From contig JANWVM010000007.1 of NCBI GenBank assembly GCA_025056115.1, positions 1 to 64,000 on the forward strand: DNA of 64,000 bases. The letters are read 5' to 3'. Position numbers and translations under genes: made by a program. The notes beneath the pieces are model-generated. The model made no database searches. It saw nothing but the letters and a program-made list of their open reading frames with translations, and was not told where the DNA came from. Positions 44,320 through 56,254 of this stretch are shown piece by piece (within the stretch, counting starts at the first letter, position 1; each line of letters begins with the position of its first letter). The DNA comes from Gloeomargarita sp. SKYG116 (lineage in GTDB: Bacteria; Cyanobacteriota; Cyanobacteriia; Gloeomargaritales; Gloeomargaritaceae).

Positions 44320-44742
44320 TCAAGTGGGATTGCTGTAGCTCTGGCGTAAATAGGCTCGCCAACCCCCGAAATGGGAAATATCTAGGGCGTTCACGATGGC
44401 AAACCATTCACACAAAAAACCTTTCACCATCTTGCCGTCAGCTAGCACTACGGTCCCAATCCCTAGGGGCGAAGGAATTTGCGCTACCAGGCGACCGAAA
44501 TTTCCCACCGGCAGTTCCCATACCTCTACCTCGATGGCGTAACCCGGTTGGCCCGGCAGTTGACGGATGAGACCTGGCTTAGGGATTTCTCCCCCTGGCA
44601 GCGCGTAGAGACGGTAAATAGGAGCCGTGGTACAGGTGCGTACATATCGAGCCTGCAACGCCAGCAATTCCCCGTTCAAGGGTTGGCCGGTGAGATGAGC
44701 ACCCACGACGGCTAACGGCACCCTAGGTTCTGAACTGTCCAT
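44320..44742 (-). CDS. Allophanate hydrolase, C-terminal domain as separate ORF
   Basis: LAVVGAHLTGQPLNGELLALQARYVRTCTTAPIYRLYALPGGEIPKPGLIR; GGAGGAAAG Shine-Dalgarno right before ATG. Confidence 0.85.
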   Translation of the reverse strand: MDSSEPRVPLAVVGAHLTGQPLNGELLALQARYVRTCTTAPIYRLYALPGGEIPKPGLIRQLPGQPGYAIEVEVWELPVGNFGRLVAQIPSPLGIGTVVLADGKMVKGFLCEWFAIVNALDISHFGGWRAYLRQSYSNPT

Positions 44743-46097
44743 CTTTCCTCCGACGCCAACAAGGCCTGATAACGTTCACCCCAAGCGCACAACTGTTCTT
44801 CGTGCCAAGCTGGGGCTATCAAAGTGACACCTGTTGGCAACCCATCGGGCTGAAAGCCACTGGGCAACGCCAGCGCACACAAATCCAACAAATTCACAAA
44901 GTTGGTGTAGCGCCCCAAACGCCGGTTCAGTTCCACCGGTTGCGCCAGCACTTCCTGCACCCGGTAGGCTGTCCCTATCGTTGGCAACAGCAGCAGGTCC
45001 ATCCGTTCCCATTGGGCTTCGGTTTCCCGTTGCAGCGCTTGCAGGCGGTACATGTCCCGGAACACCTGAACACCCGAAATCTCTCGTCCCGCTAGGATGA
45101 TCTGGCGTACTGTCGGGTCTAGGCCGGGATGGTCCTGGACTAAAAAATCCCCAACCGCCGCCGTGCGTTCGGCCAACCACGCTCCTTCGTAGAGTAATTC
45201 CCCAGCGGCGAGAAACGGCTGAATATCCACCGTCACCACCTGTGCGCCTATATCGGCAAACCGCTGCACTGCCGCCTGGTAGTTTTGGGCCGCCGCTTGA
45301 TTGCCCATAAAGTCCAACTGTTCCAGCGGGGGAACGCCTAGACGCACCGTTGTTGGGGGTAACGCCGGGGGTGGAGCCGGTCGCCGGGAAAAGGGGTCTT
45401 CCGGGTCAAAACCCGCCGCCGCCTGGAAAACGGCTTGGGCATCCCCCACCGTCTGGGCGAAGATGGACACGCAATCCAAACTGCGCACCGCCGGTACAAC
45501 GCCCCTGGTGCTGAGATAACCGCGCGTGGGTTTGAGACCGACAATCCCGTTGAGCGCTGCCGGCACCCGACCTGAACCTGCCGTATCCGTCCCCAGGCTA
45601 AAACTCACCAAACCCGCCGCCACCGCCACCGCCGAGCCGGAACTGGACCCGCCGGGAATGTACTCCGGATGCCAGGGATTGCGGCAAATGCCGTAGGGCG
45701 AGCGCGTCCCCACCAGCCCCGTCGCAAACTGGTCGAGATTGGTCTTGCCAATGGGAATGGCGCCAGCGGCCTCCAACTTCGCTACGACTGTTGCCGAAAC
45801 TACTGGGACATAGGCAAACGCTGGGCAGCCAGCCGTTGTGGGTACTCCCGCCCAGTCAATGTTGTCCTTGATGGCAAAAGGGATACCGTACAGGGGTAAG
45901 GCTGCCAGGTCACGGGTTTCCAGGTGCGCTGCCCGGGCCAGGCTCTCTGCTGGGGGAGCCAGATAAATCCATACCGCTGGGTCGCTGTAGCGTTCGATGC
46001 GCTCGTAAACCTGCTCCACCACCTGAGTGGGCGCGAGTTTACCAGCGATGTAGGCTTGGCGTAGGGATTGAAGGTCTAGGCGAACGTCACTCCCCAT
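44712..46097 (-). CDS. Allophanate hydrolase, amidase domain
   Basis: Amidase signature GGSSSGSAVAVAAGLVSFSLGTDTAGSGRVPAALNGIVGLKPTRG; FAIKDNIDWAGVPTTAGCPAF. Confidence 0.88.
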   Translation of the reverse strand: MGSDVRLDLQSLRQAYIAGKLAPTQVVEQVYERIERYSDPAVWIYLAPPAESLARAAHLETRDLAALPLYGIPFAIKDNIDWAGVPTTAGCPAFAYVPVVSATVVAKLEAAGAIPIGKTNLDQFATGLVGTRSPYGICRNPWHPEYIPGGSSSGSAVAVAAGLVSFSLGTDTAGSGRVPAALNGIVGLKPTRGYLSTRGVVPAVRSLDCVSIFAQTVGDAQAVFQAAAGFDPEDPFSRRPAPPPALPPTTVRLGVPPLEQLDFMGNQAAAQNYQAAVQRFADIGAQVVTVDIQPFLAAGELLYEGAWLAERTAAVGDFLVQDHPGLDPTVRQIILAGREISGVQVFRDMYRLQALQRETEAQWERMDLLLLPTIGTAYRVQEVLAQPVELNRRLGRYTNFVNLLDLCALALPSGFQPDGLPTGVTLIAPAWHEEQLCAWGERYQALLASEERWTVQNLGCR

Positions 46098-46098
46098 G

Positions 46099-54900: not shown

Positions 54901-55507
54901 AGGGGGGTATCAGTTAGTAGGACGCACCGTACCTGTCTGGAACCGCTACCGTCAGACCCGCGAGTTTTCTCGTCCCTGGTTGCTGCGGTTTTTTGACCAG
55001 ATTCGCTTTTTCCCAGTCACTGCTGAAGAACTTCTGCGCTATCGGGAAGACCTGATCTACGGTCGGGTCAAATTGGAGATATACGAGCAGACCTTTCGAC
55101 TGCGAGACTACTTAGCCTTTTTGGCGCAAAACGCCGCCGAGATTCAAGCGTTTAAGACTCAACAGCAGCAAGCCTTCAACGCAGAACGGGAGCGCTGGGT
55201 GGCGGCTGGGGAATTTGACCGTGCGAGTCAAGAGGTACTCGTCTTTACGGCTGCCTTGTCAGAGGTAGAAATTCCTGAAGGACAAGTGGCGGTCTACGCC
55301 GAAGTGAGCGGTACGGTGCGGCGGGTAGACGTCACTCCCCAGGCGCGGGTGGCCCCCGGTCAAAAAGTGGCTGTCATTGAAGCCATGAAAACGGAAATTG
55401 AGGTGCTGGCCCCCTGCGCTGGGATGGTCGCCCAAATTCTCCATCAACCCGGACAACCGGTTACTGCAGGGCAAGCGGTGCTGACCTTAATCCCCGACGA
55501 AACGTGA
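51914..55507 (+). CDS. Biotin-dependent urea/guanidine carboxylase (biotin carboxylase + carboxyltransferase + biotinyl domain)
   Basis: [44 protein letters not shown]; KipA/KipI-like [28 protein letters not shown]; biotin site VIEAMKTE; 1197 aa. Confidence 0.93.
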   Translation: [1197 protein letters not shown]

Positions 55508-56254
55508 CGGTTCCCAGCGCACCACATGGCCGGCTGTGAGGGCGTGGATAGTTCCGTCCGCTCCCTGCAGTAGCAAGCGCCCCTGGTCATCCAGGCCCGC
55601 CCCTACGCCTGCCATCGTTTGCTGACCCATGTGAATCACTAAGGGACAACCATTCAGCACATCCCGCTGGCGCAACTGGGGCAAGAGTTTGGCCCATCCC
55701 CCTTGCTGGAGCAAACTGTGGGCTTCGAGCAGGTAACGCCGCAATGTACTCAGCACCGTTAGGACATCGGGTGGATGGGGCGTCACGTCCAGTAGACTGG
55801 CGACTTGGGCGAGGGATAAATTTGGCGTTGCCGTTGCGAGAACTGTATGCCAATCCACCGCGCGATTGAGGCCAACGCCCACCACGACCCAGGGCAACGA
55901 CGGCTCACACAATACCCCGGCTAACTTGCGGCCATTGAGCACCACATCATTCGGCCATTTGATGCCTAAGGTGCCAGGCGAGAGGGGAACCGTATCTTCG
56001 ACGGCATGGATCACCGCCAGTCCCGCCGCCAAGCTCAACTGAGGGAGGTGTGCTGCCGCAACGGGATGCAGTACAAACGAAGCCGTCAACACCCCCGGCG
56101 GCGCATACCAGGCTCGTCCTTCTCGCCCGCGACCAGCCGTTTGCCGTGGCGTGTAGATGACATCTCCCGGTTGTAAACGCGCTAGGGATTGCAGCGCCCA
56201 GGTGTTGGTGCTGGGACATTCATCCAGCCAGTGCAGCCAAGGGGGATACGCCAT
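55487..56254 (-). CDS. birA: Biotin--[acetyl-CoA-carboxylase] ligase
   Basis: ECPSTNTWA; RQTAGRGREGRAWYAPPGVL; GIKWPNDVVLNGRKLAGVL. Confidence 0.93.
   Translation of the reverse strand: MAYPPWLHWLDECPSTNTWALQSLARLQPGDVIYTPRQTAGRGREGRAWYAPPGVLTASFVLHPVAAAHLPQLSLAAGLAVIHAVEDTVPLSPGTLGIKWPNDVVLNGRKLAGVLCEPSLPWVVVGVGLNRAVDWHTVLATATPNLSLAQVASLLDVTPHPPDVLTVLSTLRRYLLEAHSLLQQGGWAKLLPQLRQRDVLNGCPLVIHMGQQTMAGVGAGLDDQGRLLLQGADGTIHALTAGHVVRWEPSRFVGD

Follow-up and report, generated by a model that had tools for sequence, protein, structure and literature searches.

The 64,000-nt window analysed here (contig JANWVM010000007.1, positions 1 to 64,000) comes from the cyanobacterium Gloeomargarita sp. SKYG116 and contains a guanidine-linked gene set between positions 44320 and 56254. 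A first-pass annotation had listed a guanidine-I riboswitch, a DUF1989 pair, a biotin-dependent carboxylase, a divergent ATP-binding cassette (ABC) transporter operon, an allophanate hydrolase and a birA gene. Every one of these elements was confirmed by profile matches, at coordinates within a few bases of those first given. The list was not complete, however, as it overlooked a Rieske oxygenase gene (49119-50201) and the division of the allophanate hydrolase into two genes. A chance origin of the set can be excluded because the same set recurs in other cyanobacterial genomes. Altogether, the locus is very probably devoted to guanidine import and assimilation, as a guanidine-induced system for nitrogen scavenging. 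Its gene content, as observed, is listed by window position and strand; diagnostic residues, riboswitch identity and the oxygenase insertion follow.

44320..44742, minus strand: separate C-terminal domain protein of allophanate hydrolase (AH_C, 140 aa); PF21986, 161.9 bits; aligns to TIGR02713 positions 435-562.
44712..46097, minus strand: amidase part of allophanate hydrolase (461 aa); NF006043, 657.6 bits, and TIGR02713, 590 bits, both above cut-off.
46099..46896, minus strand: ABC transporter ATPase, NitT/TauT type; PF00005; linked orthologues in guanidine loci.
46929..47780, minus strand: ABC transporter permease; PF00528.
47791..48798, minus strand: substrate-binding protein, SsuA/NMT1 type; TIGR01728, 248.5 bits, above cut-off; TIGR03427 ("urea ABC" substrate-binding protein), 155 bits, below cut-off; probable ATG start at 48798, with a TTG-extended open reading frame reaching 48855.
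48896..48909, no strand: NtcA-type box (GTAN8TAC) in front of the binding-protein gene, at an aligned position in two same-genus loci.
48966..48981, no strand: TGTAAATTTTTGTAAA, a 16-bp direct repeat flanking the oxygenase insertion (left copy); exact match to the right copy.
48985..48998, no strand: another GTAN8TAC box, in front of the Rieske gene; less well supported than the first.
49119..50201, plus strand: Rieske non-heme iron oxygenase of a guanidine-linked cyanobacterial clade; PF00355 and PF00848; ATG start, with a TTG-extended open reading frame from 49104.
50197..50212, no strand: right copy of the repeat; its counterpart in same-genus genomes is the only copy there and precedes the riboswitch.
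50273..50380, plus strand: guanidine-I (ykkC) riboswitch aptamer; RF00442, 82.4 bits.
50368..50437, plus strand: terminator-like expression platform, in which GCCCGGGAG, the 3' strand of the aptamer, can pair with CTCCTGGGC ahead of a U-rich run.
50458..51231, plus strand: carboxyguanidine deiminase subunit, UAAP1 type (DUF1989, 257 aa); TIGR03425, 302.5 bits (cut-off 206).
51259..51909, plus strand: carboxyguanidine deiminase subunit, UAAP2 type (DUF1989, 216 aa); TIGR03424, 355 bits (cut-off 285).
51914..55507, plus strand: guanidine carboxylase (1197 aa); TIGR02712, 1853 bits (cut-off 1304).
55487..56254, minus strand: BirA biotin-protein ligase, convergent; TIGR00121, 129.9 bits; its tail overlaps the carboxylase gene.

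Guanidine and urea carboxylases are distinguished by Asp or Asn, respectively, at position 1330 of the K. lactis enzyme, with Asp required at position 1584 (PMC11410670; also PMC12186494). When the carboxyltransferase substrate residues were aligned with those of the K. lactis enzyme and nine cyanobacterial homologues, a check that the first-pass annotation had proposed, Asp was found at both positions, the combination that the rule assigns to guanidine carboxylases. Asp699 (codon 54008-54010; TIGR02712 position 701) aligns to Asn1330 of the K. lactis urea enzyme (5I8I), and the conserved Asp947, in the motif GLGDVYLG, corresponds to position 1584. The biotinyl lysine is Lys1159. Among 386 cyanobacterial genomes sampled, 10 encode the enzyme. 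Nine of the ten are of the Asp type, each with a guanidine-I riboswitch; the tenth (genome G338) has Asn at the diagnostic position and neither a riboswitch nor DUF1989 genes beside the enzyme, and this homologue is a natural control. In that genome, the Asn-type (urea) carboxylase is found together with a split allophanate hydrolase (L076:9728-13360). Urease is encoded elsewhere in the window's genome; hence, urea needs no carboxylase route. Together with the riboswitch and the UAAP1/UAAP2 pair, these data support the proposal that the enzyme be named guanidine carboxylase and not urea carboxylase, and its residues suggest that it would prefer guanidine over urea. A search of the same genome for guanidinase, made without a positive control, found none.

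The DUF1989 genes adjoin the carboxylase gene in one operon, with one protein for each subunit family, both above cut-off. UAAP1/UAAP2 pairs are the established carboxyguanidine deiminase (CgdA/CgdB). The amidase and C-terminal domains that AtzF carries in one chain are both present in the window but in two genes, which overlap by 31 bp. Allophanate hydrolase is also split in most cyanobacterial relatives, a fused 604-aa form being found in loci L071 and L074; judging from its domains, the split enzyme should work like AtzF. The transporter falls within the SsuA/NMT1 group. In other cyanobacteria, its homologues are found with carboxylase as well as with guanidinase, which supports guanidine as the substrate; knowledge of the family likewise suggests that guanidine is what it imports.

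The proposal of a self-contained nitrogen-scavenging module is supported for uptake, carboxylation, deimination and hydrolysis. It holds less well for cofactor loading: birA is present, convergent and linked to the locus, and several relatives have it close to a guanidine carboxylase or deiminase gene, but it is the sole biotin ligase gene of the window's genome. Its role as a dedicated part of the module is thereby weakened, and we regard it as a housekeeping gene with an additional link to the locus.

The riboswitch matches the whole RF00442 model (positions 1-107; gathering score 63, E 3.7e-13), and the 2.37-Mb genome has no other guanidine-I element. The first-pass annotation was right about its presence, and slightly off in placing it at 50280-50385. 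A hairpin that can form downstream of an aptamer, followed by a U-rich run, is the usual layout of an antitermination ON switch. The segment 50273-50440 is more stable than shuffled sequences (fold z-score −3.16), and comparable pairing segments are found in the same-genus loci L077 and L079. From what is known of the family, the riboswitch would be expected to bind guanidinium. Guanidine-I riboswitches are also found in very many genomes of family f31, in which the three loci read (L185, L186 and L187) lack guanidine-degradation genes. Elsewhere in the window, a thiamine pyrophosphate riboswitch is found at 11903-11996 (plus strand, 74.5 bits).

The divergent transporter operon lacks a riboswitch of its own. 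The GTAN8TAC box that precedes the binding-protein gene stands at an aligned position in each of the three genomes of the genus. This box and the one before the Rieske gene are consensus matches only. Since such boxes are no commoner than chance in the window (9 observed, about 12 expected), only the conserved position of the box carries weight; it suggests that the operon is probably under nitrogen control via NtcA. A palindrome, ACTGN6CAGT, is also detected at 50227-50240, between a conserved promoter element and the riboswitch, with a similar sequence in both same-genus genomes. It is a possible regulator site.

The intact Rieske gene lies between the transporter operon and the riboswitch. 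In the two same-genus genomes (G085, locus L077, and G241, locus L079), the transporter faces the riboswitch with nothing between. Apart from the oxygenase, these genomes keep the same gene set, which in G241 is found in two places, with the carboxylase elsewhere. In the window, the exact repeat brackets the Rieske gene, and its two copies are the only ones in the genome. When the outer flanks are joined, they align continuously with the intergenic regions of the same-genus genomes, where the element occurs once. Given the flanking repeat and the continuous alignment with the empty sites, insertion of the oxygenase gene at the promoter region of the riboswitch operon is the most likely event, two losses being less likely.

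Close homologues of the Rieske protein (E < 1e-50) are present in 19 of the 386 genomes, and 18 of the 19 have a guanidine-I riboswitch (Fisher p 5e-9, a value inflated by kinship). Outside the window's genome, the gene adjoins ABC genes in 17 of 18 loci; 14 have a riboswitch at the cluster, and 14 show the order guanidinase-HypA-HypB-binding protein-permease-ATPase-Rieske. A scan of a genome collection added loci from Synechococcus, Cyanobium, Prochlorococcus, Tildeniella and Leptolyngbya; all 23 cyanobacterial loci lie beside ABC transporter genes, a linkage that the non-cyanobacterial matches in that scan do not show. The cyanobacterial set, including the window protein, forms one clade (support 100/100), whose motif HDNTL[CD]DYHV is present in the window protein. 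Distant cyanobacterial Rieske proteins (L050 and L051) have no link to guanidine genes; hence, the association is specific to the clade. Linkage of a Rieske gene to guanidinase clusters in marine picocyanobacteria had been noted without a function (PMC10119275). According to the same paper, Synechocystis PCC 6803, which has the guanidinase operon, lacks such an oxygenase. New here is the presence of the clade beside the carboxylase pathway and, in Tildeniella and Leptolyngbya, in riboswitch clusters without guanidinase.

Two other arrangements were detected in these genomes. At L033:7363-11906, a second ABC set accompanies a Rieske gene and an isochorismatase-type hydrolase, separate from the guanidinase operon of that genome; the nearest NCBIfam entry for the hydrolase is biuret amidohydrolase, below cut-off. 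In addition, a type III glutamine-synthetase-like ligase (TIGR03105) is found inside guanidine-I operons of freshwater Cyanobium/Synechococcus, Tildeniella, Leptolyngbya and genome G170 (L087:5444-6805, L037:13275-14639, L089:5872-7236 and L173), and all six of its close matches in the phylum sample are at such operons.

What might the oxygenase do? Its Rieske ligands (C73, H75, C94 and H97; CXH...CXXH) and the 2-His-1-carboxylate iron site (H195, H200 and D311) are invariant across 50 homologues. The AlphaFold model has a mean pLDDT of 92.8, and its best Foldseek matches are stachydrine demethylase (3VCA) and carnitine monooxygenase CntA (6Y9D); profile (HMM) searches of the sequence also put Rieske N-demethylases of small cations first. 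The substrates that enzymes of this group oxidise are small cations with N-methyl groups. The gene is found with two unrelated routes of guanidine degradation, and the importer is little changed with or without the oxygenase (the binding protein is 71-74% identical among the same-genus genomes); on these grounds, the simplest view is that the oxygenase acts upstream, making guanidine from a substituted guanidine. Our tentative hypothesis is that it may oxidatively dealkylate imported methyl- or alkylguanidine to guanidine. Methylguanidine is favoured as the substrate because another guanidine-carboxylase operon, that of Vreelandella, encodes an unrelated pair, MgdH/MgdL, that demethylates it (PMC12508155). 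The window protein is not a member of the MgdH/MgdL family (a 2-oxoglutarate/Fe(II) dioxygenase and a lyase) but a Rieske oxygenase.

Several observations weigh against this hypothesis. Identity to the nearest solved demethylases is only 22-23%, which does not fix the substrate, and the scores of many Rieske enzymes that act on other compounds are nearly as high. No reductase gene adjoins the Rieske gene, so that a ferredoxin donor has to be assumed. The gene sits upstream of the riboswitch, hence outside its control.

Other explanations must be considered. One is that the enzyme hydroxylates a larger guanidino compound such as agmatine, an arginine derivative, creatine or creatinine, with guanidine still being released. 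The gene context would be the same, and among known guanidine-forming oxygenases, plant homoarginine hydroxylases reportedly attack the carbon adjacent to the guanidino group, which they hydroxylate. However, conservation of the same-genus importer with or without the oxygenase favours a substrate near guanidine in size, and we consider this explanation rather unlikely. Less likely still is an unrelated substrate, a small N-methyl cation of the betaine type carried by the same transporter, in which case the enzyme would only share the neighbourhood. The nearest characterised enzymes do demethylate quaternary ammonium compounds, and at L033 the oxygenase is accompanied by another ABC set and a cysteine hydrolase, apart from the guanidinase operon; nonetheless, the clade is repeatedly and strongly linked to guanidine-I riboswitch operons, and these belong to two unrelated pathways of degradation. 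That the gene is a chance passenger without a role in guanidine use would agree with its apparent insertion between repeats and its absence from the same-genus genomes, but is improbable: it lies exactly between transporter and riboswitch, nearly all its nearest relatives adjoin guanidine transporters, and its reading frame and active-site residues are intact. Finally, a urea amidolyase system built on a urea carboxylase is suggested by the accompanying allophanate hydrolase and by NCBIfam labels ("urea carboxylase", "urea amidolyase associated"), but was rejected as extremely improbable, since both diagnostic residues, the riboswitch, the DUF1989 pair and the urease oppose it and the sole Asn-type cyanobacterial homologue stands without riboswitch and DUF1989 genes.

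The locus would work as follows. The ABC transporter would import guanidinium, to which the guanidine carboxylase, a biotin- and ATP-dependent enzyme, would add a carboxyl group; the DUF1989 pair would deiminate carboxyguanidine to allophanate and ammonia, and the two-gene hydrolase would convert allophanate to ammonia and CO2. Guanidine bound to the riboswitch would block the terminator, turning on the deiminase-carboxylase operon. Upstream of these steps, the Rieske enzyme, if it is a dealkylase, would hydroxylate an imported substituted guanidine at its N-methyl or N-alkyl carbon, with methylguanidine as the best candidate, yielding guanidine and an aldehyde; its electrons might come from photosynthetic ferredoxin.

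The locus is of an already known kind, and its novelty is the combination of the oxygenase with the carboxylase pathway. With the pathway of the Raoultella/Klebsiella type (PMC12186494) it shares the enzymes (carboxylase, CgdA/CgdB and allophanate hydrolase), the riboswitch class, ABC import and the Asp signature. It differs in its cyanobacterial host, a phylum in which just 9 of the 386 sampled genomes have the Asp-type enzyme, in having one guanidine-I riboswitch and no guanidine-II, in its divergent transporter operon without riboswitch, in the split allophanate hydrolase and in the oxygenase insertion. The cyanobacterial guanidinase operon (GdmH/Sll1077, HypA/B-like chaperones and the sll1080-1082 ABC transporter; PMC8390497) has a guanidine-I riboswitch and a homologous transporter, to which some lineages add the same Rieske clade; however, it uses a nickel guanidinase and urease where the window uses carboxylase, deiminase and allophanate hydrolase. 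The Rieske protein of the picocyanobacterial guanidinase cluster, CK_00002251 (PMC10119275), very probably belongs to the same clade, as judged by position and lineage and not by sequence, but is linked to guanidinase instead of the carboxylase pathway. In Vreelandella, an extra oxygenase in a guanidine-carboxylase operon has been shown to feed methylguanidine into the pathway, although by unrelated enzymes (PMC12508155). The Rieske N-demethylases (stachydrine demethylase, CntA and GbcA) share fold and catalytic residues with the window protein, which differs by its low identity, by a clade motif with a shifted acidic residue and by the lack of a dedicated reductase next door.

The ATP-costly carboxylase route is thus seen in a cyanobacterial genus, while guanidinase is otherwise usual in the phylum. 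Cyanobacteria, including Prochlorococcus and marine Synechococcus, might possess a dedicated Rieske N-alkylguanidine dealkylase that feeds either the guanidinase or the carboxylase route, although we advance this idea with caution. Such an enzyme would be the first of the Rieske type that we know of in guanidine catabolism; a literature search on Rieske enzymes and methylguanidine found nothing relevant. The idea would offer a specific answer to the question of what role the Rieske protein encoded beside the guanidine genes has in marine Synechococcus and Prochlorococcus, and it bears on whether substituted guanidines truly supply nitrogen in aquatic environments.

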